From positions 1-64,000 of the forward strand of contig CALXZK010000008.1 in the NCBI GenBank assembly GCA_944393225.1: a stretch of DNA of 64,000 nucleotides. The letters are read 5' to 3'. This DNA comes from an uncultured Alphaproteobacteria bacterium (lineage in GTDB: Bacteria; Pseudomonadota; Alphaproteobacteria; RF32; CAG-239). How positions within the stretch are numbered: position 1 is the stretch's first letter; every line of letters begins with the position of its first letter. A program made the translations under genes and the position numbers. Below the pieces are notes generated by a model. It worked only from the letters and a program-made list of their open reading frames with translations, did no database searches and was not told the DNA's origin. Below, one piece after another: positions 1,669 through 56,404 of this stretch.

Positions 1669-1863
1669 ATGAAAACATATTTAATTAATATATTTATTCT
1701 GCTGTTAATATTGGCGGCTTATTATATTAATTTTTTTGATTGGTTTACAGGAAATCTCGCGCTTTTGTTCGCCGTGCTTCTTGTTATTATAATGTTGGCA
1801 ATTGGTTGGAAGATTATTGGAAACCCCTTTGCAGAGGACAAACATCATGATGAAGATAAATAA
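1669..1863 (+). CDS. small two-helix membrane protein
   Basis: A 64-residue protein with two hydrophobic segments (about residues 4-23 and 28-48) and a charged His/Asp/Lys tail, consistent with a small inner-membrane hairpin protein. The ATG follows a good ribosome site (AAGGACGGAG). Its last 17 bases overlap the start of the first VirB6-like gene, which suggests translational coupling and a link to the secretion system. No family is recognised. Position and size could suit a small T4SS accessory, but this is inference. Confidence 0.6.
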   Translation: MKTYLINIFILLLILAAYYINFFDWFTGNLALLFAVLLVIIMLAIGWKIIGNPFAEDKHHDEDK

Positions 1864-8864: not shown

Positions 8865-8918
8865 AAGGAATTAACCAATTTTTATAAAAACGATTTTATA
8901 AAAAAGGTGAGAAGAAAA

Positions 8919-16300: not shown

Positions 16301-16478
16301 GGCCAATGGTTTAGGCGCCTCTAATATTTCGGCTCAACCGGATATTCTACCTAAATCAGAGGCAAAACAACCGCTGCAACCTATTCCGCCAAGCGATGAC
16401 GATTTCTTTTTGCCTGATTTTAATAATGATACGGATGAAAACGAACCCTATCATGCAAATAGTGATTTAAAACCTTAA
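13338..16478 (+). CDS. giant acidic repeat protein, cytoplasmic, unknown function
   Basis: A 1046-residue protein from a GTG start preceded by AAGGA at good spacing. There is no signal peptide or membrane helix. The N-terminal 75 residues look folded (IVIIQRLLNIFRQRH). Residues about 120-400 are Gln/Asn/Ala-rich with long helical stretches. A tract of 12 Lys stands near residue 470, and everything after is strongly acidic. Residues about 693-920 are tandem 33-residue units around DWEWEYEEEP. The overall look is an intrinsically disordered scaffold or exported cargo with a charge switch at the Lys tract. It heads an operon with the Pro/Gln-rich protein and the secretin-like lipoprotein. No homologous family is recognised. 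Confidence 0.7.
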   Translation: MSEENTSSIRRNKKVAGVEDPIVIIQRLLNIFRQRHILDEKQKADFNNLILQQPPEIRHMCNVLPGGSLLQEYIDELEEQNGITPNQDLNTAGNNTILANALADNSQNAAGNENTSAQPAQNSAINAQTLELQKQMLMMMQKMQSQPAAAAPVVQNVSGAATIKADASFAKDIASAIADALAQSDEKRRQEVYTLAQSMAKSQQEATSALVKELSKKEGETHIVSSGSEGNVKIIDNTKEITKAITESQLEMAKMFLQQNAINASNNANNANNIQINNAPFPNTQDLIGDIIKAQSQLFREMAREQTKEISTIITGALKESSQLSNQYLIKALSEFQKENLNFLKQQQATHQTVYYQPLPNVAGSDVAPKDYSPTVSPEILAPAPENKDEKKSSGLKHVFSNMFNLGGQNEKTNPSDIEPADNALIEENMPAEDLQPTQTFEADDIFSQPTEDVEQDVTSEDVINESAAKKKKKKKKKKKKNNDVSETQPMSPADLELRDLLGFDSDTPTNSDEDDDVILSQDEDIPVLDDTFSDIPNSEDVLDTSNQETNVSEPEISSDANDFEEISSFELPDTDTNISLDNEPVSSEFEDIFSDNTNSDKDTALAQEEPKQNEAEAEELIPAETIEEPQSVETPVEKKKSVFNKFLNSFDTENALEKLISPFQKNEEDASNADIDYKQETSPSEQSAETSDDDYEWAYEEEPAEGDNLDADTQSEEQAASADDNGDWEWEYEEEPTEGDNSEADAQSEEQAASADDNGDWEWEYEEEPTEGDNSEADAQSEEQAASADDNGDWEWEYEEEPADGDNSEADAQPEEQAASADDNGDWEWEYEEEPTEGDNSEADAQSEEQAASADDNGDWEWEYEEEPADGENSAADAQPEEQAASTDDNGDWEWEYEEEPADGDNSEADTQQEEQVASADDNNDENVSDEENTTELATDEDNNEAVQKENPSDKNDDPDFSALFDDFMASSNDPYSDERPADDDLEANGLGASNISAQPDILPKSEAKQPLQPIPPSDDDFFLPDFNNDTDENEPYHANSDLKP
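15414..16100 (+). repeat. 99-bp in-frame tandem repeat (minisatellite)
   Basis: Six units of 99 bases begin at 15507, 15606, 15705, 15804, 15903 and 16002. They encode DDNGDWEWEYEEEP followed by an Asp/Glu/Ala/Gln-rich half. A degenerate unit precedes them at 15414 (93 bases), and a decayed start of another follows at 16101. Adjacent units are nearly identical at the DNA level, with alternating variants (TEGDNSEADAQS and ADGDNSEADAQP), which indicates recent expansion by slippage or recombination in whole codons. Confidence 0.93.
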
Positions 16479-16538: not shown

Positions 16539-17333
16539 ATGGATGAACAGCAAAATAATACAAATACCCTCCCGCAAGTTGATAAAGAAACTTTGTGGGT
16601 GTTGGATAATTATATCTTGCTGAAAGATTATTTGGACCGCACCGTTTCTCGAATTGCGGCTCGTTGCATTCGTAAAGGAAATATTGCAATTGAGGAATAT
16701 CCTTTTTACAGCTATATCTTGGATGTTCTGGAAGAAATAAGCGAAAGCGGTGATTTTATTTTGGCTCATCAGGAATTGTATCCTTACGTGGAAAAGAAAA
16801 TTGCCGGCGGAATGCAAGCTTTTAAAAAGAATCTGAACGATTATAAGATTGAGCTGCGTAGTAATTCTACTCCGGATATGATTAAACAAGATGCCGCTCA
16901 AGAACTTGAAAAGATGAAGGCAGCTCTTGGTTCCATTGAACAAGATAAAGCTCATGACCCAACCGTCGGTGCCGGTATGAGCATGGATGAAGTTATTGAA
17001 AAATTGATGGCTAAACAAAACTTGGAAGCAGAAGAAGGTAGCTCTTTAGCTTTGAGCCAAGAACAGTTGCAAGCAAATGCTCCTCGTCCGCAAGCTCAGC
17101 CACAACCGCAGCCGCAGTTAAGACCTCAGCCACAACCGCAGCCGCAGTTAAGACCTCAGCCACAACCTCAACCGCAGCCGCAGTTACGACCGCAGCCACA
17201 GCCACAGCCACAGCCGCAACCGCAACCCGTTGCTCAGCCTACTGCTCAACAAGTGCAGCCTCAAGCAGCAACCATTGTAAAACCGGCAACTCCGCAAAAT
17301 CCCCAAGTCATGCCGAATAAGGTAGAAGAATAA
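16539..17333 (+). CDS. Pro/Gln-rich cytoplasmic protein, unknown function
   Basis: A 264-residue protein with no signal peptide, starting after a strong AAGGAG. The first 150 residues are predicted helical and folded (DNYILLKDYLDRTVSRIAAR, YSYILDVLEEISESGDF), followed by a short amphipathic segment. The last 100 residues are built from PQPQPQ and QLRPQ repeats in a rod-like, proline-rich tail. Such tails often span a gap or bind partners; here that is inference. Its TAA stop overlaps the ATG of the secretin-like gene (TAATG), implying tight translational coupling. No family is recognised. Confidence 0.72.
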   Translation: MDEQQNNTNTLPQVDKETLWVLDNYILLKDYLDRTVSRIAARCIRKGNIAIEEYPFYSYILDVLEEISESGDFILAHQELYPYVEKKIAGGMQAFKKNLNDYKIELRSNSTPDMIKQDAAQELEKMKAALGSIEQDKAHDPTVGAGMSMDEVIEKLMAKQNLEAEEGSSLALSQEQLQANAPRPQAQPQPQPQLRPQPQPQPQLRPQPQPQPQPQLRPQPQPQPQPQPQPVAQPTAQQVQPQAATIVKPATPQNPQVMPNKVEE

Positions 17334-18592
17334 TGAAACTTTGTAAATTGACATATCTTATGCTGACTTTTTTGTTCTCCTTAAGCGCTTGTCAGCAACA
17401 CGAAGAAAACGCTCCAATTATCAATTTCAAAAAATCGGGTATTGAAGCTAAGATCAGCATGCCTCAAGATGCCAATATCATCAAAACTCCCAAAGGGGCT
17501 CAAGTTTTTGATTTGGAAACACCTTTGCGCTGTTCCGTAAACTGGCAAACACAACAAATGATTACCAGTATTCCTTACAACATCAAAGCTTTTAATTTAG
17601 TGCAAAACGGCAGTAATGACCTTATGCCGCGCTTTGAAGTAACCGGTTTTTCTTTTGAAACTATGCCGGCTGAAAAAGCTTTGCTCAAATTGACTAAAGA
17701 AGCCGGTATCAAACTCATTGCCAAAGATCCTCCGTATGCCAGCATCTCAGCTGAAAATTTGCGCGGAGAACTCTCTGAAGTGGTTAAAATGATTGCTGAT
17801 GCCGCTGAAATTTATTATTCATACGATGCGCATAACAAAACATTACGCATTAGCCGTAAAGCTAATTTCAGTCTTTATGTGCCAAAATCAAGACCGATTT
17901 TGTTGGCGTTGCTTGACGTTTTACGCGGCTCGGGAATCACCGATATTACTTCAGATTGGGATGATTATTCCATCACATTTGATGCTGATTTTGAGTTAAA
18001 AAACAAAATTTTAACCTTAATCGGATATTTTGAAGAAAATCCGCTGTTGATTGCTTTTGATGTCTATGTCGTTAAGGTTTATCCGACCAACCCGCAAAAA
18101 GATATTCAATGGCAAAGCTTGCTCAACACTTTTGACTATGGTACAATTAAATCGGCTAAAACAGGTGTTATCGGTCGTGTTTTAACAACATCTAACGATT
18201 TGAACATTGATGCTCTTAATATCTTTCTTTCCATGCAGGGAAAGGTGGTACCTGTGGCTCAAGGCAAATTTGTTGTGCCTAACCTATGGTATGCTCGTTT
18301 TGATGTTGGTAAATGCGGTCAAAGACAAGATATTGACGCCAACTTGTCTATCTTGGCAAAAGCATCTATTGAGCAAAACAATAAAATCTTTTCAAATATC
18401 ACTTTAGACTCTACCGAAGGTGAAGTAACTCAGTTTTCTATTCGTAGCCAAATAGGCGAAAACTTCTTAATCATCGGTATTCCGAACGAAATTTTCGGTT
18501 CTAAAGATAAAGATTCACAAACAATTGTCTTTATGGTTCCGCGCATTATTCGTACCATGAAAACAAATCAACATTTACAAAACAAAATTTAA
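17333..18592 (+). CDS. divergent secretin-like lipoprotein
   Basis: A 419-residue protein with a lipoprotein signal ending LSAC at residue 20. Residues about 105-185 have the pattern of a secretin N-domain (FSFETMPAEKALLKLTKEAG, IYYSYDAHNKTLRIS). A second N-domain-like part follows, then a region that can be aligned by eye with the C-terminal half of the PilN secretin at 50285 (amphipathic strands, FSIRSQIGENFLIIGIP, and a final TIVFMVPRII like LLVIILTPVV of PilN). The barrel region is shorter than usual, so it may form a reduced pore or cap another secretin. It is coupled to the preceding gene by TAATG. This is a second secretin-type subunit separate from the pilus operon. Confidence 0.62.
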   Translation: MKLCKLTYLMLTFLFSLSACQQHEENAPIINFKKSGIEAKISMPQDANIIKTPKGAQVFDLETPLRCSVNWQTQQMITSIPYNIKAFNLVQNGSNDLMPRFEVTGFSFETMPAEKALLKLTKEAGIKLIAKDPPYASISAENLRGELSEVVKMIADAAEIYYSYDAHNKTLRISRKANFSLYVPKSRPILLALLDVLRGSGITDITSDWDDYSITFDADFELKNKILTLIGYFEENPLLIAFDVYVVKVYPTNPQKDIQWQSLLNTFDYGTIKSAKTGVIGRVLTTSNDLNIDALNIFLSMQGKVVPVAQGKFVVPNLWYARFDVGKCGQRQDIDANLSILAKASIEQNNKIFSNITLDSTEGEVTQFSIRSQIGENFLIIGIPNEIFGSKDKDSQTIVFMVPRIIRTMKTNQHLQNKI

Positions 18593-19362: not shown

Positions 19363-20331
19363 CTATGTAACTTCTGTAACCGCACGTAAGTTGCCATCAC
19401 GATTGATTTGAACGACACGCAGCTTTTTCTTCATTTCTTGTATGGTCTTATTACGATCAATGGTCGGAGATGCGTGCATAATACGATCTACAAAGGCATT
19501 ATATGCCGCTTCGGAACTTTCAGCGTGAATTGTTGCCAAACAGTTATCGTGACCAGATCCCATCAACTCCCATATTGCTGCTGCGTTACTGGTTGAAATC
19601 TCACCGCCGATAATAGCATCAGGAGTAAAACGTACGACCAAGTCGATAACTTTGGCATATGTTAAATCGTTGGTTTGTTCCGTACGGGACAAGGTGATGT
19701 GTACTCTGTTGGGATGAGGAACAATTAATTCTCGCGTATCTTCAATGGTTAAAATACGTTTATGAATGTCCAAAATCTTCAACAAGTTGTTCAAAAATGT
19801 TGTCTTACCGGTTGCTGTTGCACCTGAAACCAAAATATGGTCACCACGCTTGATACTCAACAACAATTTTTCATAAGGATCTTCCGGATCTTTAATTTGC
19901 TTCAACACATTAATTTGATGCAGTTTTGCACCTTGTGACAAACCATAATCGCCTAAACCGAAAGCCACATCATCACTATGAATACGGATTGTTAAAGCAA
20001 CACCGCCGGTTAGGTCATCTTGGTCGTACATGACGTTTTTGCCGGCAATTGCTGAAAAACGGTGCTCTCCGGGAATGGTGGCATAAACTACCGGGCTTCC
20101 GGCGACCGGATCAAACGGCAATTCATAAGTGTTGGCGATGATGTACAACAAATCAATCAAATAGTCTTTGGTTAATTTTTCATCTTTATACATCACCCAC
20201 GGATAGGCTCTTTTGCCACGCAGACGCAACCATATTTGTCCCGAACGGTTGATGGCAACCTCTTCAATATTGTCCTGATTGTACCAATAAGACAATGGAC
20301 GAAGAACTGATTCTAATACGGCAAATGTCAT
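19363..20331 (-). CDS. virB11: VirB11-type T4SS traffic ATPase
   Basis: A 322-residue hexameric-type ATPase that would power the secretion channel from the cytoplasmic face. It shows Walker A GATATGKTT at residues 170-178, an Asp box LTIEDTREL (194-202), HPNRVHI typical of VirB11, and a His box GHDNCLATIHAE (260-271). The N-terminal 120 residues are the usual VirB11 N-domain. The start is the ATG at 20331, with AAAGGAG eight bases upstream; a longer reading would add a low-complexity basic extension that overlaps the VirB10 gene in another frame. It is the last gene of the long T4SS operon, ending at the shared terminator. Confidence 0.93.
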   Translation of the reverse strand: MTFAVLESVLRPLSYWYNQDNIEEVAINRSGQIWLRLRGKRAYPWVMYKDEKLTKDYLIDLLYIIANTYELPFDPVAGSPVVYATIPGEHRFSAIAGKNVMYDQDDLTGGVALTIRIHSDDVAFGLGDYGLSQGAKLHQINVLKQIKDPEDPYEKLLLSIKRGDHILVSGATATGKTTFLNNLLKILDIHKRILTIEDTRELIVPHPNRVHITLSRTEQTNDLTYAKVIDLVVRFTPDAIIGGEISTSNAAAIWELMGSGHDNCLATIHAESSEAAYNAFVDRIMHASPTIDRNKTIQEMKKKLRVVQINRDGNLRAVTEVT

Positions 20332-20344
20332 AGATTTTACTCCT

Positions 20345-23300
20345 TTAGAATAGCTGCGGAACCGAGGGGTTTGAGTTGCTCTTATTATTGTTAGATGAAG
20401 TACCGCTGCCAGCCCCTGCCGTATTCTTTGAAGTATTCGACGTTGATGGGGTTGACGTTGATGACGATGATGATGGCGGCGGTGGCGGAACAACAACTTG
20501 TTGTTTGCCTCCGTGCTTTTTATATCTATCGCCGGCAATCAACGGTACGGACTGTGAACCTTCGGTGTTTTCTTGATAGCTTACTTGACCATTATCTGAA
20601 GTACCACCACTTACGTTAGTTGTACCGGTATTGTTAACAGGTCTGCCTCTATCTTGAAGTCTAGCTTCATCATTAATCAAGACGTCTGCATCACCTTTAT
20701 ATTGTTCATCTGTATCATTTTCAACGGTTCTTAACCACAAATCAACTTTCGGGAACACGATAATACGAGTTCCGGCAGGAACATAGGACATAGCCTGAAT
20801 GCTTGACTTATCTTGCAGGATTTGTTCAAACATTTGGTTCATTTGATCCAAAAAGTTTTGACGTGCATCGTTAGCAGCTTCTTGTTTTGAACTTTCGGTT
20901 TCACCGTTTCCATCATCATCAGTTGCCATCATATAAGCCATTGTGCTGGTTAAAACAGTTGTCATTACCGGCATGGTATAGCGCTTGAACAATTGTTTAT
21001 CCATATAACCTAAAGCACCACCACGACCTTGAGCATCACCGGTCAAACCATCAAACTTGAACATGGAACCATCAGGACGAATCAATCTTTGCCATGTGAT
21101 TTGAACTTTGGCAGATTCAGAAGAAGCTTCCGATGTCGGAGATAAACCGCCTAACTCACCAATGAAACGGCTACCTGCCGGAATCAAAACATTTCGTCCT
21201 TCTTCGGCATAGACGTTTCTTTCTACAAAAGCCGTTACCGGTGTTGGGTTGTTAGAGTCAATTGAACGAGCCAAAACAGCCGGAATCGGTTTATCAGCCA
21301 ATATCATTTGGCTCATATCAACACGCCATGAAGAAATGGCTTTTTCAATGCCTTGTTCACTCCAGTCTTTTTGCATACCGTCAAAGGCTTCTTTACGAAC
21401 ATTGGTGCTGATTTTGCCAACTTGCATATTTTGACGTCTTTGTCCTTGAGCAACCGCCAAAGCCGCACTTCTTTGCGGATTGTATCTCTCGCCAGGACCA
21501 TAACCGCCTCCGGGACCCAAGTTATCTCCGGGACCAACGCCGACACCATAGGCAGAACCTTGACCAAAGCTTCCTGCCGGCACAAAAATTTCACCTTCTT
21601 TAGGCTTTTGAATCTCTTCAATTCCGATTAAGGTACCATCTTTATCAACAATCAAACCATCGGGCATTTTTTGACCAACGACACGACCTTTTTTATCTAT
21701 CACCGTACCGTCTTCCATAATTTCACCCAAATAGCCGCCATCCGGTGTTAAAGCAATATTCAATGATTTACGATAACGACCATCTAAATTTTGTGATTTG
21801 CCGCCATCGCCTAAAGTACCGATAATCGGGGTTGTATCATCTTTTTTCTTTGAAACCGGGGTTTTTACTTTTTCATACCAGCGACTGCCCATTCCGCCAA
21901 TAATGTTATTGTTAGCATCCAAAGCATTACCGTTTTCATCAACTCTACCGATAACTTTTCCGTTTAGATCTTTAATTGTGCCATCGGCTTGTAAGTTTCC
22001 GACCAAATTGCCTTTTTCATCAAAGATTCGACCATCGGCAAAAACTTTGCCCAATATATTACCCATGCTATCGACTATACGACCAGCGGCATCTTTCAAG
22101 CCAACGATTTTGCCTTTAAAGTCAACAACTTTATTATCCGGTTGGACGTGAGCAATAATCTTTCCGGTATTATCACGAACAGCATTGCTATCATCTAAAA
22201 TTCCAACAATATTTCCGTTTTTATCAACAATGTTATTGTTGGCATCTTTCTCACCGATGACTTGACCTTTTTCATTAATCACCGTGCCGTTTTCTTGCAA
22301 ACGACCAACAATTTGTCCATCTTCGTTAACCACATTATTACTATCGGCAACATAACCAACAACTTCATTTTTGCTGTTTTTCATAAATCCCGAAGCATCT
22401 ATTTTACCGATTTCAACACCATTACTATCTAAAACGCGTCCATCTTCGGTTTTGCGTCCGATAATATTGCCGTTTTTATCTAAAACGTTATCCGGATTGA
22501 TAACACGACCAATAACATCGCCGGCGGCATTTTTAATAAAACCTTTTTTATCAACGGATTGTCCGGAAATTTTATTTCCGTCTTTATCAACCAAATTGCC
22601 TTTTTCATCAAAGATTCGACCATCGGCAAAAACTTTGCCCAATATATTACCCATGCTATCGACTATACGACCAGCGGCATCTTTCAAGCCAACGATTTTG
22701 CCTTTAAAGTCAACAACTTTATTATCCGGTTGGACGTGAGCAATAATCTTTCCGGTATTATCACGAACAGCATTGCTATCATCTAAAATTCCAACAATAT
22801 TTCCGTTTTTATCAACAATGTTATTGTTGGCATCTTTCTCACCGATGACTTGACCTTTTTCATTAATCACCGTGCCGTTTTCTTGCAAACGACCAACAAT
22901 TTGTCCATCTTCGTTAACCACATTATTACTATCGGCAACATAACCAACAACTTCATTTTTGCTGTTTTTCATAAATCCCGAAGCATCTATTTTACCGATT
23001 TCAACACCATTACTATCTAAAACGCGTCCATCTTCGGTTTTGCGTCCGATAATATTGCCGTTTTTATCTAAAACGTTATCCGGATTGATAACACGACCAA
23101 TAACATCGCCGGCGGCATTTTTAATAAAACCTTTTTTATCAACGGATTGTCCGGAAATTTTATTTCCGTCTTTATCAACCCAATTGCCTTTTTCATCAAC
23201 ATAGCCAATGATATTGCCATCTGCACCGATAGCTATGTTTTTGCTCTTTGTTTCTACGATATTAATTCGGCTATAATATTGCAAAGGACGGGCTTGAGCT

Positions 23301-26005
23301 ATTTTTTCACCTCTGCTGTTGACAATACTACCAGAAGCGCCGAGTTTGCCAATGACCTGATTGCTATTATCAATAACATCGCCATTCAACTGCAACTCGC
23401 CGATAACTTCTTGTTTGTCGTTGCGAATATAAAAATCGCGGTTACCTCTGGCAATAACTTGATCGTCAGAGCTCAACACAAAACCACGTTTCAAGTTACC
23501 GATGGTGCGGTTGTTTAAGCTTTTTACAATACCATCTTTACCGATGATACCGATTACATTGAAATTGTTATCATAGGCATAAAAATCATACAAAGCAAAG
23601 CCAAGATAATTTGTTTCACGCATAACGCTACCATCAAACATGACATTGCCGATTATGTTATTTTTGTTATCATAAACCTTGCCATCTTCGGCAACACGAC
23701 CTAAATAGCGTCCGTTATCTTCAAAGGCGACCGTATATTTGAAAACATTTCCGAGAGACTTTCCGCTTCTCTCCTGAACATTACCATTGGGCTGTACGTT
23801 GCCGAGAGTTTTACTGTCTGTTCCAATAACAGAACCATCAACAGATGTTCTGCCGATAATTTCATTGTCCAAGCTCATTACCGTACCGGCAGAGATAACT
23901 CCGGCGAATATTTTACCGTCATTATTTTTTACGGTTCCGCGACCATCTGCGCAACCTAAAACTTTTCCGGCATTGTCCATGGCTTGACCGACACCGTTTA
24001 AGCTACCGATTACTTTTCCATTTTCATCAGCAACCATACCGAAAGCGACCGTATGACCAATAACGGCACCTGTTTCGTTAACAACTTGTCCGTTATTTAA
24101 TACGTTTCCTAAATAGATATCCTTAAAATTACGAACATCTCCGCGCGGAGTAACAAAGCCGATTAAACTACATTCTTTATCGACGACGCTCGCGGTCGGC
24201 ATAACATAACCGTTCAAAATATTATTGTTATCAAGAACATAATTATTGGCTGCAACGCGTCCGATTTTGTTATATCCGAAGTCAAAAACACTTCCGGTTT
24301 CATTTGCATAACCTAAAAGAGATCCATCGAATCCAAATGCCAAGAAAGATGAAACGGCTCTGCCGGTTTGCGGCATGATGTCGGAAGACGTTTCTTTATC
24401 TGACTTGATGACGAAACCTTCTGGAACAATTTTGCCCTGAATTTTTTTGTTTTTATCAATTACCAAGTTGGTTTGGCTCAGTGCGCCTAGCAGACTTGCT
24501 TTGCCATCTACGGCAAAATTAGCATTGGAAATTTTTCCTAAAAACTCATTTTGTTCATTCAGTAAAATACCAGATTGCATTATTTTGCCATCAACATCTT
24601 TTCCGGCTGAAACAGGTTTACCATTTATACTGAGTTCGGCTACCAAAGCACCGATTTTATTATAAATGGCTTGAGGCTTCAAATTCATTCCGGCAAACAA
24701 GCCATCTGAAGACAAAGCTTGTCCAAAAGGAGTAACCTTTATTTGGCTATCTTGAGCTCCTACTTTACCGGCAACACCGCTCATGCCAATAAATCTATTG
24801 TTATTATCATACACCAAAGACGGTTCCATAACCGCACCGATAACTCGACCTTGCATATTATAGGCATGACTTTTTTGCATTTTGCCGATATTGCTGCCGC
24901 CTAAAGAAATAACTTGTCCGTTACTTAAAGCATGACCAACAATACTTGACTTATAATCAAAAATCGGACCGGTTTTGACTAAGTTACCAATTTGAGTACC
25001 ATCTTGATTTATGACGCTGCGGCGCGCAGAAATGCTTCCGGTTTCTTCTTTTGACATGGCAATTTTGCCTTCCGGAATGATGCGTCCGATATATTTTCCT
25101 TGAAAATCAGTTGCGGTTGCAGACAAACCCACCGAGGTACCAATAACTTCTTTTTTATCATTAATTATGGCACCATCAGCTCTTTGCCATGCAACGGTTT
25201 TTCCCTCATTTAAAACTTCGCCGTTATAACCGATATAGCCCAAATAGCGTCCGTAGTTATCAAAGGCATAGCCTGATTTTACCATACCGCCGATAATTTC
25301 GTTTTTGTCATTATAAACATAGCCATTTGCTTTGATTTTACCGATGATATTTCCATCAAAATCGGAGACATCACCACCCGGAGCGATGCTGCCTAGAAAG
25401 TCGCCATTCATGGAAACAACCATTTTGCTTGAAATGAGCAAACCATCTAAAACAAAATCATCTCCCACACGGCGATAAGCATAGCCATCGGGAGTGATAT
25501 AGCCGATTTTTTGTCCTTTCAAATCAGAATATTGTCCATCACCGGTCAAACGTCCTACTGTTTTTCCTTCATCACTATAAACCAAGCCGGGGAACAAAAC
25601 CGCGCCCAAAATTTCATAATAGTCATTAACGACCAAGCCGCTCGGTAAAGCTTTTCCCAAAACTTTTCCTGACGGAGAACGAACCGTGCCATCCGTGCTT
25701 ACTTTACCTAAAAAGCTGGTATCATTGGCAATTGCAATTCCTTGTGGGACAACTCCACCTATTAATTTGCCATCAAAATTGATAATCATACTATCAGCAT
25801 TGATATTTCCGATTAAGCGATTATCAAAGCCCACAACATTACCATCAGGAATGACTTTACCCAAGACCTCACCGTTAAAGTCTATTGCCGTAATTTCTTG
25901 AGCATAAACATCCAGAGCTCCCATACATAAACCGCAAAAAGCAAAAGTCGAAACTTTTGCTGCTTGCTTAACTTGCTTTATCCATTTTTTAAGCTCAAAC
26001 TTCAA
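20345..26005 (-). CDS. virB10: giant VirB10-type core protein with repeat array (VirB10-C)
   Basis: An 1886-residue protein. It starts at TTG 26005 with GGAGG nine bases upstream and opens with a signal peptide (ending VYAQE). Residues 40-1470 are an array of about 17-residue units of the form NGxxIGxVxxDGxVxD, probably a long beta-solenoid-like rod. The C-terminal part (about 1560-1780) is a TrbI/VirB10 domain: GRNVLIPAGSRFIGEL, IRPDGSMFKFDG, a hydrophobic antenna segment (KRYTMPVMTTVLTSTMAYMM) and VPAGTRIIVFPKVDLWL. A Pro/Ser tail ends the protein. VirB10 normally spans both membranes, but here the N-terminal anchor is encoded by the gene just upstream. It contains an exact 588-bp internal duplication. 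Confidence 0.85.
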   Translation of the reverse strand: MKFELKKWIKQVKQAAKVSTFAFCGLCMGALDVYAQEITAIDFNGEVLGKVIPDGNVVGFDNRLIGNINADSMIINFDGKLIGGVVPQGIAIANDTSFLGKVSTDGTVRSPSGKVLGKALPSGLVVNDYYEILGAVLFPGLVYSDEGKTVGRLTGDGQYSDLKGQKIGYITPDGYAYRRVGDDFVLDGLLISSKMVVSMNGDFLGSIAPGGDVSDFDGNIIGKIKANGYVYNDKNEIIGGMVKSGYAFDNYGRYLGYIGYNGEVLNEGKTVAWQRADGAIINDKKEVIGTSVGLSATATDFQGKYIGRIIPEGKIAMSKEETGSISARRSVINQDGTQIGNLVKTGPIFDYKSSIVGHALSNGQVISLGGSNIGKMQKSHAYNMQGRVIGAVMEPSLVYDNNNRFIGMSGVAGKVGAQDSQIKVTPFGQALSSDGLFAGMNLKPQAIYNKIGALVAELSINGKPVSAGKDVDGKIMQSGILLNEQNEFLGKISNANFAVDGKASLLGALSQTNLVIDKNKKIQGKIVPEGFVIKSDKETSSDIMPQTGRAVSSFLAFGFDGSLLGYANETGSVFDFGYNKIGRVAANNYVLDNNNILNGYVMPTASVVDKECSLIGFVTPRGDVRNFKDIYLGNVLNNGQVVNETGAVIGHTVAFGMVADENGKVIGSLNGVGQAMDNAGKVLGCADGRGTVKNNDGKIFAGVISAGTVMSLDNEIIGRTSVDGSVIGTDSKTLGNVQPNGNVQERSGKSLGNVFKYTVAFEDNGRYLGRVAEDGKVYDNKNNIIGNVMFDGSVMRETNYLGFALYDFYAYDNNFNVIGIIGKDGIVKSLNNRTIGNLKRGFVLSSDDQVIARGNRDFYIRNDKQEVIGELQLNGDVIDNSNQVIGKLGASGSIVNSRGEKIAQARPLQYYSRINIVETKSKNIAIGADGNIIGYVDEKGNWVDKDGNKISGQSVDKKGFIKNAAGDVIGRVINPDNVLDKNGNIIGRKTEDGRVLDSNGVEIGKIDASGFMKNSKNEVVGYVADSNNVVNEDGQIVGRLQENGTVINEKGQVIGEKDANNNIVDKNGNIVGILDDSNAVRDNTGKIIAHVQPDNKVVDFKGKIVGLKDAAGRIVDSMGNILGKVFADGRIFDEKGNLVDKDGNKISGQSVDKKGFIKNAAGDVIGRVINPDNVLDKNGNIIGRKTEDGRVLDSNGVEIGKIDASGFMKNSKNEVVGYVADSNNVVNEDGQIVGRLQENGTVINEKGQVIGEKDANNNIVDKNGNIVGILDDSNAVRDNTGKIIAHVQPDNKVVDFKGKIVGLKDAAGRIVDSMGNILGKVFADGRIFDEKGNLVGNLQADGTIKDLNGKVIGRVDENGNALDANNNIIGGMGSRWYEKVKTPVSKKKDDTTPIIGTLGDGGKSQNLDGRYRKSLNIALTPDGGYLGEIMEDGTVIDKKGRVVGQKMPDGLIVDKDGTLIGIEEIQKPKEGEIFVPAGSFGQGSAYGVGVGPGDNLGPGGGYGPGERYNPQRSAALAVAQGQRRQNMQVGKISTNVRKEAFDGMQKDWSEQGIEKAISSWRVDMSQMILADKPIPAVLARSIDSNNPTPVTAFVERNVYAEEGRNVLIPAGSRFIGELGGLSPTSEASSESAKVQITWQRLIRPDGSMFKFDGLTGDAQGRGGALGYMDKQLFKRYTMPVMTTVLTSTMAYMMATDDDGNGETESSKQEAANDARQNFLDQMNQMFEQILQDKSSIQAMSYVPAGTRIIVFPKVDLWLRTVENDTDEQYKGDADVLINDEARLQDRGRPVNNTGTTNVSGGTSDNGQVSYQENTEGSQSVPLIAGDRYKKHGGKQQVVVPPPPPSSSSSTSTPSTSNTSKNTAGAGSGTSSNNNKSNSNPSVPQLF
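22003..23178 (-). repeat. exact 588-bp tandem duplication inside the VirB10 repeat array
   Basis: Bases 22003-22590 and 22591-23178 appear identical. Each encodes 196 residues, about twelve of the 17-residue units, and the reading frame is kept. The next copy breaks off after some 20 bases with one mismatch. Identity at synonymous sites points to a very recent event, or to an assembly artefact of a repetitive gene. Confidence 0.88.
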
Positions 26006-26008
26006 TGT

Positions 26009-29000
26009 TTAATTCCTCCGGTTTTTTGCAACTTCTAATAAAACATATCCCGATACATTTTTATCTAAATCTATATAAGAACCATTGTTCTTAATGTAAC
26101 CGATTGTTTCTCCGCCGGCATTTAAGACCTTGCCTCCCGCAGACATACGCCCCGCATACTTACCATCATTTCTCAGTACCGTTGCGCCAATCTTAAATAT
26201 TCTACCCAAGATATTGCCTTCATTATCAGTTGCCAAATCTTTAGATAATGTTCTGCCGATGATGTTACCATCTTTTGCACGAATTGTACCATCAATATTT
26301 ACATAACCCACAACTTTATCATTATTTCCGATAATGATATCGCCATTCAAGACATCTCCGTACAATTTTCCGGCATCACTGATAACACTGCCATCAGGCA
26401 AAGCCCTGCCGATTTTGCTGTTATATATGTCTATAACCGAACCATCAGGTAATACGGCACCGCTGATTTCTCCCGAAAAATCTATAACTGTACCGCTTTT
26501 CAAAATACTATAATTCTTATCTGATGAACCACCGGGCAGGATGATGCCGATTGCTTCATTCTTCATATCCAAAATATCACCCACACCATTGACAATGCCG
26601 CGATAATGTCCCCAAGTGTCTATAACAATATCTTCCGGAACAACCTCTCCGATAACATCGCCTTTGGCATTAATCACCTTGCCGTCAGATGATACTTTAC
26701 CATTATCTTTTCCATCAAAATCTATCACTCTGGCATTGTTCATCACATATCCCAAATAAGAGCCGTCATAACCTATAGCTGCACCTTTTTTGAGTAAAGC
26801 TCCTTGATATTCTCCCTTATTGTTGAAGAATGTACCTTTAGCATCAATTTGTCCTAAAACCTCGCCAAATTTATTAATAACTTTCCCATCGGGTAGGCTT
26901 TGTCCAACAATATCGCCATTAAAGTCGACAATATTTCCTTGAGGAATTGCTCTTCCGAATGTTTTTCCATAAAAGCTATTTGCGCTTTTTAATTTGCCAA
27001 TATTTATTCCTTTATTGTTATACACTTTTCCATCAAAGAAAGGTCTTCCGATGACATTTCCTTTGGCATCTAAAATAGATACTTTGTCATCCAAAGCAAC
27101 ACCGATAACTTGATTTTTAGAATCCAAGATCAAATTGTTGACGGACAATTTTCCTTGTCCTTCTGCACGTTCTACAATACCCGCATCATCAACAACATCT
27201 AAAAAGTTTCCTTCCAAATCAAAGGCATATTTTTTACCGGTAAGCTTTCCGGCATAACCACCTTTTTTGTTTAAAACTTCTCCGTTGATATTCATGCAAC
27301 CAATGGCTTCTTTACGCGAATTGAAAACAAGATTGTTATTGCCTACCATACCGAGATAGTTATTATTGTAATCGACAACCATGCCTTTACGTGCAACTCG
27401 TCCGATAACCACACCTTTTTCATCTAATACGGTTCCATCGGGATTTAAGCAGCCTGCATATTTTCCATCAGGACCATAAACCAATCCATCTACTCTTGCA
27501 TCTCCGATGTGACGACAGTTGTTATCATATACTTTACCTGTGGTAACAACTTCGCCCAGATAATTTCCCGAAGCATCGACCACTGTTCCGTCAAAATTGA
27601 TTTTAGCTTTGGTATCCTCATTATTCTTTTTAATTTTTCCGTCTTTATCCAAAACGCCGATTTGCTTACAACCATAGCCAATAACCAAACCACCGCGCAG
27701 CATTTGAGCTACAACCTCTGAACCTGAAACGTCTTTTACCAATCCGTTTGATAGTACTCGACCGATGATTTCTTGTTGTGTGTTATATACGCTTCCGTCA
27801 TTACCAACGCGTCCCAAAACGACACCTCGCGGTGTTATCGGCAGCATTGTTGTTTCCACCAAAGCACCAACAATCTCCGGCATATTACTAATGATACGAC
27901 CGTTTTCATTTACCTTACCGACTATATTTCCGGAGAAATCTTTAGCATTACCATTTTTATCAATATAGCCGATAATATTGCCGTCGTTATCCAAAGCAAG
28001 ATTCATTGAACTCTCAACTTTACCGACGACTTGCAAATCTTTGGTATAGACTTCACCATCTTCGTTGACTTCGCCCAAACTTTTACCCGTACTATCAAAG
28101 GCTTCATCACCTTCGGCATAGCCAACTACTTTTCCTTGGTCATCATAAAGCATATTGACGCTTTTACCAACTTTACCGATAACTTTGCCATCTTTATCAA
28201 TAATTTGACCGTTTTCATCAACCTTACCCAGAATATTGCCATCAAAATCAACAACCGTTCCGTCATCTTGAACATAACCAATCAAATTACCATCTGCGTC
28301 ATAAGCTAATTGGCGCTCATCGCCAACAACACCTATTTTCTTGTGTTGCAGAACATTACCATTGGCATCGACTTGTCCGGTTACATTACCATTTTCATCA
28401 ACCACTTGATTTTTATCATTAACATAACCGATAACTCGACCATCTTCTCTAACCGCCAATTTGCCACGATTTCCGGTCATGCCGATTGTTTTCTCACGAA
28501 CAACATTTCCGTTTTCATCAATATGCCCGATAACTCTGCCCGCAGCATTTACCACAGAACCGTTTGGCATGACAACACCAAGCTTGTTACCATTTTTATC
28601 AACAGCGACACGTCCTTGTTTGGAAACCGTTCCTAATATATTGCCTTTTAAGTCGACAACTTCTCCTCGTCCGTTAACTCGTCCGATAATATTGCCGTTT
28701 TTATCGACGACACTTCCATCCGGCATCACTTTGCCAATAACGTTACCGTTTTCATCATAGACATAGCCGGTTTCAATAGCTCGTCCAATTACATTTCCGT
28801 CTTTATCGACAACACTACCGTCCGGCAAAACTCGACCGATAACGTTACCATTTTTATCAACGACAGAGCCATCCGCACTTACATAGCCGATAACATTGCC
28901 GTTTTCATCTAAAACGACCCTCTGGTTGTCTGCAATACCGATAATATTTCCGTTATCATCAATAATCAGTCCATTACTGTTGGTTCTACCGATAATTTTC

Positions 29001-29746
29001 TGAGAAGCATCTCTAACCAAGCCGTCTTTATCAATGGTACCGATAACTTGTCCGTCGATACCAATAGCCTGTTTAACAGCCTCCGCATCGCTCGTCGGAG
29101 ATGTAGATGTTCCGAGAGGAAGCTCGCACGAGGTGCAATCTTCTTTATTAACGGCACTACCGATGACCGGAACTTTTTCTGATTTGGCATTTTGCGCTGA
29201 AACATTGGTTTCATGCCAAGATACAATAAAATTATTTTGAACATTTCCGGCAACAACCGGTACCCAAGTCATGGTAATGTGACAAGTATCTTTACCGACC
29301 AAAGTTTTGCCGCTACAACCATCTTCAAAATTAAAACCTTCTGCCGGTGGTTCAGCCAACAAAACAGACGTAATTTTAATTGAAGCCTTTCCTGTTGTTC
29401 CTATGGTTAAAACATTTTTGGCATCCGTTCCCAAAACCACTTGTCCCAGAGGAACCGGATTTGGCGTTGTTGTAATGGGAATTCCAATATCTTCAATGGT
29501 TTGAAACTCAATACTATTATCTAAAAGCGGACTTTCTGCACCGATGTTAATGGCATCATCATTATCGGTAAAAGACGGCTCTTCATATTCGTAAGTATTA
29601 TTATCTTCCGATATCAACAGCATGACACCCAACAAAAAGATGATAAGCGAAGATATACCAACAATTAAAATAATTCGGTTGGTTTTTCTGACATAGCTTT
29701 CCGAATGGGTTAACGGAGCTTGCTGTTCTTTGTCATTTTTCATCAT
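26009..29746 (-). CDS. membrane-anchored repeat protein, N-terminal half of a split VirB10/DotG
   Basis: A 1245-residue protein. A cytoplasmic N-terminus is followed by one membrane helix (about 26-48, RIILIVGISSLIIFLLGVML), the usual VirB10/DotG start. Residues 95-200 form an immunoglobulin-like domain of the ASH type (PVPLGQVVLGTDAKNVLTIG, CHITMTWVPVVAGNVQ) with Cys residues. From about residue 230 to the end it is the same IG-x-V-x-x-DG-x-V-x-D repeat array as the next gene, and there is no TrbI domain. It overlaps the VirB9 stop by four bases (ATGA) and ends three bases before the VirB10-C start. Together the two proteins have every part of one extended VirB10. Confidence 0.75.
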   Translation of the reverse strand: MMKNDKEQQAPLTHSESYVRKTNRIILIVGISSLIIFLLGVMLLISEDNNTYEYEEPSFTDNDDAINIGAESPLLDNSIEFQTIEDIGIPITTTPNPVPLGQVVLGTDAKNVLTIGTTGKASIKITSVLLAEPPAEGFNFEDGCSGKTLVGKDTCHITMTWVPVVAGNVQNNFIVSWHETNVSAQNAKSEKVPVIGSAVNKEDCTSCELPLGTSTSPTSDAEAVKQAIGIDGQVIGTIDKDGLVRDASQKIIGRTNSNGLIIDDNGNIIGIADNQRVVLDENGNVIGYVSADGSVVDKNGNVIGRVLPDGSVVDKDGNVIGRAIETGYVYDENGNVIGKVMPDGSVVDKNGNIIGRVNGRGEVVDLKGNILGTVSKQGRVAVDKNGNKLGVVMPNGSVVNAAGRVIGHIDENGNVVREKTIGMTGNRGKLAVREDGRVIGYVNDKNQVVDENGNVTGQVDANGNVLQHKKIGVVGDERQLAYDADGNLIGYVQDDGTVVDFDGNILGKVDENGQIIDKDGKVIGKVGKSVNMLYDDQGKVVGYAEGDEAFDSTGKSLGEVNEDGEVYTKDLQVVGKVESSMNLALDNDGNIIGYIDKNGNAKDFSGNIVGKVNENGRIISNMPEIVGALVETTMLPITPRGVVLGRVGNDGSVYNTQQEIIGRVLSNGLVKDVSGSEVVAQMLRGGLVIGYGCKQIGVLDKDGKIKKNNEDTKAKINFDGTVVDASGNYLGEVVTTGKVYDNNCRHIGDARVDGLVYGPDGKYAGCLNPDGTVLDEKGVVIGRVARKGMVVDYNNNYLGMVGNNNLVFNSRKEAIGCMNINGEVLNKKGGYAGKLTGKKYAFDLEGNFLDVVDDAGIVERAEGQGKLSVNNLILDSKNQVIGVALDDKVSILDAKGNVIGRPFFDGKVYNNKGINIGKLKSANSFYGKTFGRAIPQGNIVDFNGDIVGQSLPDGKVINKFGEVLGQIDAKGTFFNNKGEYQGALLKKGAAIGYDGSYLGYVMNNARVIDFDGKDNGKVSSDGKVINAKGDVIGEVVPEDIVIDTWGHYRGIVNGVGDILDMKNEAIGIILPGGSSDKNYSILKSGTVIDFSGEISGAVLPDGSVIDIYNSKIGRALPDGSVISDAGKLYGDVLNGDIIIGNNDKVVGYVNIDGTIRAKDGNIIGRTLSKDLATDNEGNILGRIFKIGATVLRNDGKYAGRMSAGGKVLNAGGETIGYIKNNGSYIDLDKNVSGYVLLEVAKNRRN

Positions 29747-31515
29747 TGAGTTCTGACTACGCTACAAAATATACCATTACGACCGAGTTTAGAACAAACG
29801 GCATCGCCCTCTTCCAAACTTTTAACCGGACCAACTCTTAAGTGGAACAACTCTTTTCCTTGTCCGTCAGCAGGAGTATCAACCGAATAAAATGGTTCAT
29901 ATCCGGCTAAATCAGACTTATATTTTCGGCTTAAATTATTCCACAAAGATTCCAATTTGCTAACATCGGCATCTGTACCTAACTCAATAGAAATATTGGT
30001 ATTAGCATCGAATCCGCTACCATAGCCAAACTGTTGTAAATATTTGCTATTACCGTTGCTTTGGTTGGCTGCCGTTTGATTGGGCAATCTTTGCATTTTG
30101 GAATAATCATAAGCACCGGTAACGGCTCCTTGGTGTTGGGACATGCCTATATTTCCGCCCATCATACCAGAACCATTCATTCCGCCGAAACCATTTACAC
30201 CGCCGGCGGCATAAGCTCCATTCATTCCCATATTATTTGCAGCTCCGCCCATATTCATTCCATTTGCGCCCATACCGGCTTGCATATTTCCATATTGAGG
30301 ATATATGTATTGACCATTGGCGCCCATGCCTTGAGCATTCTGTCCACCCATAGCTCCTGCTGCAGAAGAACCTACGTTAGGGTAATTTTGTGAAGCATTC
30401 GGATCAAATGCTGCTGACAAGTCACCGTTTTTAAGCGGAGGCGGGACATCCCAACCCGGTTTGGCATCATCTGCATATACTCCATATTCCAAGCCAGCTG
30501 AATCAGAACGGCGCAATTTCAAACAAACAATTCTTTTTCCATTTCTTAAAACCAAATCACCAACAGCCTCGACAACTATCAGACGATTATTCGGTCCTTT
30601 GGAACGAAAGCCTACAGGAGTTTCCACTTTTTCATTAATCAATGTAACAATCGGACGCTGGGTCATGTTAATGGCTTTGTTTCCCAAATCGATATAAGTG
30701 AAAATATCGTCACGCCATACGCGTTCGGGCGCAATTACGACGTCTTCCGGATTTGGAACATAAACCTCAATATCAAAACGGAATTTTTCCGGATCTACCG
30801 GAATGGATTTCAACCAATCTTCTTTTTGATTGCGGCGCGTATATGTTGAAGCGACAGACTTTGGATTGCCGTTACCATAAGCTGAAGCACCTTTTCCACC
30901 GTTTGTAACACCACCACCGCCACTACCAAAAGAACCTATTGAAGAGCCACTATCTCCCTCTGCTCCAATAACCTCAATATCGATAATTGAGTTTGTTAAG
31001 CGCTCGGTATTGACACCTTCGCTTCGAACATAAAAGACATAGCGATTTCCTGAACGACCAAAAATAATTACGTTGGTATCAACGCCGACATTGGCTCCTT
31101 TTTTAGGATACAATAAAACAGTGTTAGGTCCCGAGATTTGTCCGTCAAAAGTTGAATTATCACCGATATAAACATCTTCAATCATTTCCCAATCAGGAAA
31201 ATTAATCATTGTTATCATACCTTCACGCAAGCGTATCGGCAAAACCAAATCTGACGACCAATAATATTTTGAGTAAGCCGGCTTTGTTTGACCCTCACCC
31301 AAATTTTGCAAAGGATCCAACCATGCGCTTTGCATCATACCGATTGAGCCAAACCCAGCATAGCTCATATCCATAGAACGGTACTGACCTTGATCCTGAT
31401 CTGCGCTTTGATCCAAGCTGTTTTCCTGAGCGACGGCTACTCCGCTGCCCATTGGGAAAGCCATTGCACATAAGGAAAATATTTTTATTATTTGTTGTTT
31501 CATTTTTAATACCAT
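29743..31515 (-). CDS. virB9: VirB9 core protein with C-terminal SPOR domain
   Basis: A 590-residue exported protein. Signal peptide, then a VirB9 N-domain (about 85-175: VLPIRLREGMITMINFPDW, NTVLLYPKKG, YVFYVRS), a Gly-rich spacer, and a VirB9 C-domain (about 235-340: VWRDDIFTYIDLG, NNRLIVVEAVGDLVLRNG). A Gly/Met/Asn/Ala-rich linker of about 120 residues follows. The last 90 residues fit a SPOR peptidoglycan-binding domain (ISIELGTDADVSKLESLW, LFHLRVGPVKSLEEG, CSKLGRNGIFCSVV). VirB9 makes the outer-membrane core with VirB7 and VirB10; the SPOR domain would tie it to denuded septal-type glycan. It lies nine bases after the VirB8 gene. Confidence 0.85.
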   Translation of the reverse strand: MVLKMKQQIIKIFSLCAMAFPMGSGVAVAQENSLDQSADQDQGQYRSMDMSYAGFGSIGMMQSAWLDPLQNLGEGQTKPAYSKYYWSSDLVLPIRLREGMITMINFPDWEMIEDVYIGDNSTFDGQISGPNTVLLYPKKGANVGVDTNVIIFGRSGNRYVFYVRSEGVNTERLTNSIIDIEVIGAEGDSGSSIGSFGSGGGGVTNGGKGASAYGNGNPKSVASTYTRRNQKEDWLKSIPVDPEKFRFDIEVYVPNPEDVVIAPERVWRDDIFTYIDLGNKAINMTQRPIVTLINEKVETPVGFRSKGPNNRLIVVEAVGDLVLRNGKRIVCLKLRRSDSAGLEYGVYADDAKPGWDVPPPLKNGDLSAAFDPNASQNYPNVGSSAAGAMGGQNAQGMGANGQYIYPQYGNMQAGMGANGMNMGGAANNMGMNGAYAAGGVNGFGGMNGSGMMGGNIGMSQHQGAVTGAYDYSKMQRLPNQTAANQSNGNSKYLQQFGYGSGFDANTNISIELGTDADVSKLESLWNNLSRKYKSDLAGYEPFYSVDTPADGQGKELFHLRVGPVKSLEEGDAVCSKLGRNGIFCSVVRTQ

Positions 31516-31523
31516 TCTACTTT

Positions 31524-32261
31524 TTACTGAACTTTATTATATGTTAATGAATATCTATCTACCGTAAAGCCAACCGGATTTTTCAGTCTTTCGCCGGATT
31601 TCACGGTTTTTCCGCGATACGTTATACGCAGCGATGCCGTCCAATAGTTCACTTGTGGCTTGCTGGAATCCGGATACATATCTCTGGTTTCATATTCAAC
31701 TTGCCACAAACCACGTGTCAACTCATTCACAGAGATAATTTTTACCGAACGTGTTAATCCCTTACTGCGAATGATGCTCAGAGCCTTCAAAGCCGTTCTT
31801 TTCTGAAAATCTTCATAGACGGCAGGAGAAGACATTTCCTGAATCGGACCGCCGGGCATCCAGCGCGCTTCCATCTCCGGAATATTAGAGGTGAAAGAGC
31901 TGCGCAAAAGCACATATTGACGAACAAAAACTTCCGTTACCGCTTTTTCATCTTCCAAATTGCGCAACGGAGCGATGTTGAAAACCTGTTCATCTTTATC
32001 TTGAAAAGACAACAAGAAAGGTTCAACCCGGAACAACGGCATAACTTGAAAAATTGCCAATATCAAAACGATATTACAACAAATGCTGATTGCTGTTACG
32101 ATAGCAAAAGCACGAGCCGTCCACAGATATCTCTTTTCGGCAATATTGGCAACGAAAACATTTTCTGCTCTGGGACGTTGCTGCTGAGGTGCTGCTCGGC
32201 GCGGTTGTCCGCTGCCAATCAGCCTTTGTTCCGTATTATTTCCTTGTAGGCTTTCAACCAT
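31524..32261 (-). CDS. virB8: VirB8-like inner-membrane protein, copy 1
   Basis: A 245-residue bitopic protein. A basic cytoplasmic N-terminus is followed by one membrane helix (about 50-77) and a periplasmic NTF2-like domain. Landmarks are MPLFRVEPFLL just after the helix, MEARWMPGG, NYWTASLRITY, and the terminal NPVGFTVDRYSL that typifies VirB8. VirB8 is an assembly factor that links the inner-membrane platform to the core. It sits between the VirB7-like and VirB9 genes, the canonical order. A second VirB8 lies upstream at 33359. Duplicated VirB8 occurs in rickettsial T4SS, and DotI/DotJ are the paired equivalents in Dot/Icm systems. Confidence 0.88.
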   Translation of the reverse strand: MVESLQGNNTEQRLIGSGQPRRAAPQQQRPRAENVFVANIAEKRYLWTARAFAIVTAISICCNIVLILAIFQVMPLFRVEPFLLSFQDKDEQVFNIAPLRNLEDEKAVTEVFVRQYVLLRSSFTSNIPEMEARWMPGGPIQEMSSPAVYEDFQKRTALKALSIIRSKGLTRSVKIISVNELTRGLWQVEYETRDMYPDSSKPQVNYWTASLRITYRGKTVKSGERLKNPVGFTVDRYSLTYNKVQ

Positions 32262-32277
32262 TGATTTTGCTCACAGA

Positions 32278-32469
32278 TTAAATTGTTTCGATATACCAAT
32301 CAGGCAAATTTTTAGGAAGATCAATATGCATGCATGCACAAGGAGACAATTTGAGCTCGTTTACACCTTTACCAACACCGACCGGCTCCGGCTCATAATA
32401 TGAACCAAAGCAACCAGTTAACAAGAACAATGTTGCCAAAGCTAAGATTTTGCAAGAAATTTTCATCAT
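32278..32469 (-). CDS. virB7: VirB7-like small lipoprotein
   Basis: A 63-residue lipoprotein. The signal ends LTGC at residue 20, followed by a short Pro-rich mature part with two close Cys residues (SPCACMH) near the middle. Size, lipidation and position next to VirB8 and VirB9 fit VirB7, which anchors the outer-membrane core and can form disulfides with VirB9. VirB7 sequences are too short for firm homology, so the call rests on context. There are two possible starts (ATG ATG); AGGCC lies upstream. Confidence 0.7.
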   Translation of the reverse strand: MMKISCKILALATLFLLTGCFGSYYEPEPVGVGKGVNELKLSPCACMHIDLPKNLPDWYIETI

Positions 32470-32600
32470 TAAGGCCTTTCTCTGATTTAAATATTCTTTA
32501 TGTTATTTTAACAATTAAACTCTTTTAACATAAATGTCTAATATCAAGCAGATAAAATCCCCAACTTATCAACAAATAATCTTTTATTTATGATTTTCTT

Positions 32601-33359
32601 TTAGAAAATTTCTACTTCAGACTGAGAATATCTGGTTACGGTAAAACCAATTGGATTGATTAAACGACGTCCCATAAAGATGCGTTCAGGATAAAATCTG
32701 GCTGTTACAGAAGCTGTCCAATATCTTTCTTTCATTATTAAAGCTCCTCCGGTACTTGAATTTCCGGGACGCAATTCATAAGTTTTGAAGTCGACCTTCC
32801 AAACTTCACTTCGTTTCCCGCCTTGCCGACCAATAGATATGATTTCAACTTCTCGCACAAAATTGTAATAATCTTTTTTCTCCATCATGGACTTTGTGCT
32901 ATCGCGAAACTGATAAAATACCGGCCAAGATGACAAAAAGTTTATCATTCCGCCCGGAAGCCAACGGCTACTCATTTCTACTTCATCACTAATGACCGTA
33001 TTGCGCAATATAACATATTGCTTGATAAATGTTTCCAGCAATAAATCTTTTGATGCCATATTTTGAGATATTGGCTCAGATCGAACCATGTTTTCCGAAT
33101 TATCTTGCCGAATGATTAAAAACGGCTCAACTTCAACCAACGGAGCTAAATGAAACAAAGCCAAACTTGCACTCAAAAAGACAAGCAAAGATATTGTGGC
33201 AAAGAAAATGAATAAACGCGATAGCCACATATAGTAAACCATTTTCAGAGAAGATGTTTCTTTTTCTTCTTGGCTGATAAAATTGGTATGTGCGTGCCTA
33301 TTCTTATCTGCAATAGATAAGATTTGCGCTCCTTGCCCCAAAGAATTTACTTCGTTCAT
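32601..33359 (-). CDS. virB8: VirB8-like inner-membrane protein, copy 2
   Basis: A 252-residue bitopic protein parallel to the 31524 gene: N-terminal cytoplasmic stretch, helix at about 47-73, then LAPLVEVEPFLII, MSSRWLPGGM, RYWTASVTARFY and the closing NPIGFTVTRYSQ. The two copies share layout and motifs but differ across most positions, so the duplication is old and the copies have probably specialised, perhaps as a hetero-oligomer. It is separated from the VirB7-like gene by a 131-base gap without visible genes and lies 21 bases after the large coiled-coil gene. Confidence 0.87.
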   Translation of the reverse strand: MNEVNSLGQGAQILSIADKNRHAHTNFISQEEKETSSLKMVYYMWLSRLFIFFATISLLVFLSASLALFHLAPLVEVEPFLIIRQDNSENMVRSEPISQNMASKDLLLETFIKQYVILRNTVISDEVEMSSRWLPGGMINFLSSWPVFYQFRDSTKSMMEKKDYYNFVREVEIISIGRQGGKRSEVWKVDFKTYELRPGNSSTGGALIMKERYWTASVTARFYPERIFMGRRLINPIGFTVTRYSQSEVEIF

Positions 33360-49552: not shown

Positions 49553-49641
49553 TAAGTTGTTGCTTGCGCTTGATTATTTATTTTTCAGTATGTATGATAG
49601 GTAAAAAAATTATGACAAAATATTGCTTAGGGACCGCAAAA

Positions 49642-51904: not shown

Positions 51905-51917
51905 AAGGTAGAAAAAA

Positions 51918-54690: not shown

Positions 54691-54699
54691 GCAAAAAAA

Positions 54700-56376: not shown

Positions 56377-56404
56377 GCTAAAAATTTTTTAAGTGAGGAA
56401 AAAG

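Follow-up and report, generated by a model that had tools for sequence, protein, structure and literature searches.

A predicted two-piece VirB10 in the type IV secretion operon of an uncultured alphaproteobacterium

Two adjacent genes in the place of virB10

The window analyzed here is the whole of a 64,000-nucleotide stretch of DNA (positions 1 to 64,000 of contig CALXZK010000008.1, assembly GCA_944393225.1) from an uncultured alphaproteobacterium. It carries an operon for a type IV secretion system (T4SS) in which profile matches to the window proteins place two genes, here called A and B, between virB9 and virB11. A first-pass annotation, made from the letters of the window, had described them as adjacent genes for repeat proteins of 1245 and 1886 residues, and both open reading frames (ORFs) are exactly those described. 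Their features, all on the minus strand, are as follows.

26009 to 29746, minus strand: gene A, 1245 residues, ATG start; an ORF matching the N-terminal part of single-chain relatives
29612 to 29674, minus strand: transmembrane segment of A, residues 25 to 45; Kyte-Doolittle 2.98 for residues 25 to 43, the only transmembrane segment of A
29147 to 29473, minus strand: A residues 92 to 200, ASH/choice-of-anchor-D-like domain; weak match, also conserved in fused relatives
28010 to 29101, minus strand: A residues 216 to 579, near-ideal 17-residue beta-hairpin repeats (Pfam Bflower_2/Bflower/DUF3659), of species-variable length
26012 to 28009, minus strand: core of A, residues 580 to 1245, degenerate repeats of fixed length up to the cut, gap-free in 56 species
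26012 to 26047, minus strand: C-terminal tail motif of A, [YF]xL[PQ]EVA[KRQ]NRRN, in nearly all species; predicted to be disordered in A alone
26015 to 26019, minus strand: GGAGG ribosome-binding site of B, within the RR codons of A, 9 nt ahead of the TTG
20345 to 26005, minus strand: gene B, 1886 residues, TTG start; an ORF with a TrbI domain
25898 to 26005, minus strand: B residues 1 to 36, predicted Sec signal peptide (...ALDVYA|QE), a leader being seen at 73 of 73 junctions
23276 to 25897, minus strand: core of B, residues 37 to 910, degenerate repeats of fixed length from the cut onward, gap-free in 63 species
21566 to 23275, minus strand: B residues 911 to 1480, repeats of variable length, containing an exact 591-bp tandem duplication
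20732 to 21304, minus strand: VirB10/TrbI C-terminal domain, B residues 1568 to 1758 (Pfam PF03743, PDB matches)

The product of gene A is predicted to be the inner-membrane-anchored N-terminal half of a VirB10. Its transmembrane segment is preceded by a basic stretch and followed by an acidic one, which by the positive-inside rule gives an N-in/C-out orientation. The ASH-like domain matched Pfam ASH (E 0.007) and NCBIfam choice_anch_D (E 1e-5), both below cut-off, a weak but consistent call. The anchor, ASH-like domain and repeats that had been assigned to the first protein were all recovered. Complete A genes among relatives encode between 1044 and 2734 residues.

The product of gene B is predicted to be the exported C-terminal half, and the repeats, signal peptide and VirB10 domain previously ascribed to it were likewise found. 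The C-terminal domain matched PF03743 with an E-value of 2.4e-35 and 122 bits (cut-off 35), and its PDB matches were ComB10 (2bhv), TraF (3jqo) and TrwE (7o3j). By hydropathy, B has no segment of transmembrane grade, only the h-region of the signal peptide. Its tandem repeat comprises two exact 591-bp copies at 22002 to 22592 and 22590 to 23180 (spacing 588), which implies a recent gain of ~196 residues in the length-variable block of B.

The junction reads AAC CGG AGG AAT TAA ACA TTG, that is, the stop codon of A, three bases and the TTG of B; the GGAGG lies at 26019 to 26015, and the TTG start with a GGAGG of its own was correctly noted in the first-pass annotation. We compared 73 A/B junctions. 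B lies in frame 0, 1 or 2 relative to A in 16, 30 and 27 cases, the stop codon of A is TAA, TAG or TGA in 33, 25 and 15, and B starts with TTG, ATG or GTG in 29, 24 and 20. GGAGG is present at 62 junctions, and all 73 have a B leader of 25 to 36 residues with a basic N-region and an AxA-like end. In one relative (G032, locus L032), the arginine codons no longer spell GGAGG and the Shine-Dalgarno site now lies past the stop, with the NRRN residues kept by other codons. Because frame and stop codon vary and the leader is always present, neither readthrough, frameshifting nor assembly error can explain the cut; readthrough and frameshifting as the source of the split were ruled out by the varying frame and stop codon.

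Distribution, conservation and history of the split

All genomes of the split group are metagenome-assembled genomes (MAGs). In GTDB names the order is RF32 and the family of the window CAG-239. Of 129 relatives searched as whole genomes, 72 gave a match to the VirB10 domain. Scanning named genomes yielded 80 loci with A, mostly from gut and rumen MAGs and including Azospirillum sp. CAG:239. None of these is fused: A and B are distinct ORFs at 67, and the other 13 break off short of the TrbI domain. The survey of related genomes that the first-pass annotation had proposed returned the same split. A and B are separate in every inspected genome of the window's family in which both genes are visible, and likewise in the single sister-family genome. 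Among 125 genomes of the order, 102 gave a match to the head of B, which occurs in each of the 16 genera represented, and the split, with its leader, reaches one more distant family (G121, in which the end of A and the start of B are on two contigs and an assembly frame break interrupts B). The cut recurs in independent assemblies from many studies, and no inspected genome had lost A but retained B.

The last 666 residues of A and the first 874 mature-side residues of B (37 to 910) are constant in length, and the repeats farther from the cut vary. Conservation is maximal at both array ends facing the cut. No stretch of the A core is more conserved than the final 34 residues (top 0.16% of windows), and the end of A without its last 4 or 8 residues, which encode the ribosome-binding site, is still in the top 1 to 1.4%. 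The first 34 residues of B are in the top 1% of B-core windows.

Outside the order, seven genomes in four other families of the class carry the transmembrane segment, ASH domain, same repeats and TrbI domain in one ORF, of 1273 (G074), 2831 (G093), 2521 (G260), 2348 (G144), 2149 (G354), 2216 (G362) or 2193 (G439) residues. These single chains, with the same domain order, bear out the earlier claim that one VirB10 chain has been cut inside its repeat array. In family f23, the core of A is followed colinearly by the core of B in one uninterrupted chain (a single hidden Markov model domain, 364 bits over 832 positions), and in the fused G093 protein hydropathy detected no hydrophobic segment at the place of the B leader. 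In another genome, G271, the two ORFs overlap by 4 nt without a leader, which looks like a broken single gene. Four distant families encode VirB10-like proteins of 505 to 607 residues (loci L052, L053, L054 and L183 in G091, G104, G082 and G190) in which a lipobox leader (LTAC, LTGC, LASC and LTAC, respectively) is followed by an ASH-like domain and TrbI; they are predicted to be lipoprotein VirB10s without an inner-membrane anchor.

In a tree built on TrbI, VirB11, VirB9 and VirB8, all split genomes form one clade (ultrafast bootstrap [UFBoot] 98; with G121 completed, 100 by the Shimodaira-Hasegawa-like approximate likelihood ratio test [SH-aLRT] and 97 by UFBoot). This points to an old gene fission. 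Rooting with an outgroup makes the fused lineages a paraphyletic set around the split clade (85 and 67 to 68% support); fission is then the simpler history, with the outgroup branch being long.

The tail of A (core 509 to 645; 26012 to 26416) resembles the head of B (residues 39 to 174; 25484 to 25891) with 94 bits, over ~136 residues on each side. The f23 chains fit one copy better than two (364 versus 230 bits and 296 versus 216 bits), join points in G093 moved by 17 to 34 residues score about equally, and the chains of f91 and f74 do not discriminate. Fission may have been accompanied by a duplicated overlap at the cut, which we offer as a lead drawn from f23 alone.

The repeat arrays and a candidate periplasmic joint

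The repeat unit of both proteins is 17 residues (autocorrelation at 17, 34, 51 and so on), with ~60 units in A and ~85 in B. The A and B arrays matched the Pfam beta-flower families with E-values of 1e-75 and 1e-87, the profile PF21785 giving 249 and 287 bits (cut-off 38), and every one of the 26 beta-flower matches in the genome lies within A or B. The repeats also share with beta-flowers the hairpin tip motif [DNEQ]xxG (PMC10584680). Structure prediction of each array singly, as the first-pass annotation had suggested, gave confident all-beta AlphaFold2 models for both cores. That of A (predicted local distance difference test score [pLDDT] 88.9, predicted template modeling score [pTM] 0.84) is ordered to about residue 1235, with the last residues disordered, and that of B (pLDDT 93.5, pTM 0.91) is ordered from the first mature residue. 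Sequence searches found no solved structural relatives of the A core. Foldseek returned strong-looking E-values for the arrays to RHS and like beta-rich chains, but with TM-scores of 0.03 to 0.16, and no structure comparison with the PDB (VIA-align) reached a Z of 5; this lack of matches is not evidence of a new fold. Because of these low scores, we give the arrays no fold assignment.

We consider it probable that A and B form a two-piece VirB10, the halves of which dock noncovalently in the periplasm and arose by fission of a single-chain ancestor. That ancestor would have comprised a membrane anchor, an ASH domain, a beta-hairpin array and a TrbI domain in one chain. Its gene would have been cut within the array in the ancestor of the order and the one more distant family, and the downstream half would then have acquired its own Shine-Dalgarno site and signal peptide. 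In the present system, A would be held in the inner membrane and extend its array into the periplasm, B would be exported by Sec, and the TrbI domain of B would join VirB9 in the outer-membrane core. We infer that A and B dock, the conserved tail and last hairpins of A probably meeting the first hairpins of B; the first-pass annotation had suggested that the halves may dock by repeat stacking into a very long periplasmic rod. The link from inner to outer membrane would then be a noncovalent joint between two array bodies of fixed length, and its span could be adjusted by the length-variable repeats beside the anchor and beside TrbI.

VirB10 is, according to a recent review, the only known subunit that physically bridges both membrane complexes (PMC12857230). 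We find it an evenly poised question whether the only covalent inner-to-outer-membrane link of the T4SS has here been replaced by a docking joint, the tail of A on the head of B, with signal relay, assembly order or gating running via a separable contact. If this were true, type IV secretion would be shown to manage without an unbroken VirB10 chain. The bridge has been kept in two pieces while at least 16 genera diverged. Provided that the system works, its relay has to go through a protein-protein joint, which, unlike a single chain, could be genetically broken and mended. The split would also offer a natural labeling site at the periplasmic middle of VirB10.

That the pair is an artefact, either a single gene that a sequencing error has interrupted or a single protein still produced by stop-codon readthrough or frameshifting, might be suggested by the window itself, where A and B are in the same frame (TAA ACA TTG). 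All three frames and all three stops occur among the relatives, however, with a signal peptide at 73 of 73 junctions; the cut is repeated in independent assemblies from many studies and across genera, and G093 lacks a hydrophobic segment at the leader position. We regard an artefact as extremely improbable. The first-pass annotation had counted a fused relative with a frameshift at this site as evidence against its reading: fused relatives do exist, but there is no frameshift, and the cut appears to be an ancient fission, shared by the whole clade, in which a signal peptide was gained. It is also conceivable that the split is ancestral and that the single-chain relatives reflect later fusion of two genes, as an unrooted tree puts the split and fused groups on two sides of one branch and the root is a long-branch one. 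Outgroup rooting, however, leaves the fused lineages paraphyletic with respect to the split clade, and the outgroup VirB10s too hold ASH and TrbI in one chain, which makes later fusion distinctly unlikely. Present-day function would be equal under either history.

The main rival to docking is that B alone is a shortened VirB10 of the outer-membrane side and A a separate periplasmic component of the inner membrane, without a direct bridge; coupling would then depend on the two VirB8s, the SPOR-bearing VirB9 or coiled-coil proteins or would have been abandoned. Its best support comes from the anchor-less lipoprotein VirB10s with ASH and TrbI in four distant families of the class, and it fits with the lack of a transmembrane-grade segment in B and with the facts that an ASH domain is present in A itself and that repeat length varies mostly there. 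Against it, A was never lost where B was kept among the genomes inspected, the fused relatives hold both parts in one chain, and the cut-facing ends are the most conserved in both arrays, which would be needless for unrelated parts. We therefore think this rival unlikely, if the most serious of the alternatives. Some observations nevertheless weigh against a docked two-piece VirB10. The last codons of A are doubly constrained, as they also serve as the ribosome-binding site of B; the conserved array ends could simply cap the repeats; rooting of the tree hangs on a long outgroup branch; and the anchor-less lipoproteins imply that a covalent bridge may be unneeded in the wider group and that B might act without A.

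The operon and its known counterparts

Judged by its gene content, the operon is a VirB-type (P-type) T4SS, with a virB8-virB9-virB10-virB11 neighborhood at the A/B locus. Other components of the system in the window are as follows.

19363 to 20331, minus strand: VirB11 ATPase; its ATG, at 20331, lies 14 nt past the stop of B
29743 to 31515, minus strand: VirB9/CagX, ending in a SPOR (peptidoglycan-binding) domain; stop codon overlapping the A start
31524 to 32261, minus strand: VirB8 (profile match)
32601 to 33359, minus strand: second VirB8-like protein (profile match)
41712 to 44144, minus strand: VirB4 ATPase (profile match)
1802 to 4045 and 4065 to 5441, plus strand: two TrbL/VirB6-like proteins, the second slightly under the Pfam cut-off

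The two VirB8-family genes (31524 to 33359) are adjacent and differ in sequence, and the pair is kept in relatives. VirB2-like proteins also form part of the system. A 669-residue protein (44606 to 46615) has a TrbC/VirB2 pilin domain at its N-terminal end and far exceeds pilin length. The coupling-protein family PF02534 is encoded at another site in the genome, and tblastn against PLSDB found no plasmid-borne relatives of A. Beside the VirB6 genes, a 1057-residue protein (8907 to 12080) with a VgrG3-like C-terminal domain, of cell-wall hydrolase type, is a possible candidate substrate or envelope remodeling enzyme. Two products are without a family match: a large protein with an acidic tandem repeat, DDNGDWEWEYEEEPTEGDNSEADAQSEEQAAS (13338 to 16478), and a 419-residue lipoprotein (17333 to 18592) that by eye resembles the lipoprotein between VirB9 and VirB10 in L054 (11655 to 12903). 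A type IVb-pilus-like locus (TcpQ, secretin, PilO, T2SSE and T2SSF) adjoins the T4SS at 47762 to 57535.

The first-pass annotation had also used the name DotG. DotG/IcmE of the Dot/Icm type IVB secretion system has a VirB10-like C-terminal domain and a repeat region located in the stalk (PMC7511231), but it is a single chain with pentapeptide repeats and Dot/Icm partners. We rejected a Dot/Icm identity: the partners are VirB2, VirB4, VirB6, VirB8, VirB9 and VirB11, the TrbI domain matches VirB10/ComB10 models, and DotB appeared only as a distant ATPase match (NCBIfam, Pfam). Neither A nor B matched a DotG model. Since partner genes and models are VirB-type, the name should be dropped.

In the literature searched, mostly open-access papers, we found no described split VirB10 or VirB10 gene fission and no T4SS in CAG-239 bacteria, in keeping with the first-pass annotation, which knew of no described VirB10 like this. 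Among giant VirB10s with repeats, A and B recall CagY of the Helicobacter pylori Cag T4SS, which has 1927 residues, with an extended repeat region in the periplasm and a C-terminus resembling that of VirB10 (PMC10706595), its repeats being alpha-helical (PMC2581425). CagY, however, is a single chain with unrelated repeats, and its A/B modules of alpha-helical repeats and its pair of transmembrane regions are missing here, where the arrays are predicted to be all-beta, with one transmembrane segment in A and none in B. The seven single-chain class-mates share the transmembrane segment, ASH domain, repeats, TrbI domain and operon position but are encoded by one gene as one chain, with no signal peptide in the array.

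With VirB10/TrbI of P-type T4SSs (TrwE of R388, TraF of pKM101 and ComB10), the pair shares the TrbI C-terminal domain, the N-terminal bitopic anchor (here in A only) and the place between virB9 and virB11. Whereas those proteins are one chain, A and B are two polypeptides with a separate start, Shine-Dalgarno site and leader, and they add ~2,500 residues of beta-hairpin repeats, an ASH-like domain and a second half with a signal peptide. The repeat unit itself matches the beta-flower proteins (PF21784/PF21785, Tubby clan) far above the curated cut-off. Described beta-flowers are small barrels of 8 to 12 strands, closed and symmetric with 4 to 6 petals, whereas A and B belong to a secretion system and have arrays of ~60 and ~85 hairpins, which would be the first machine context for beta-flower repeats.

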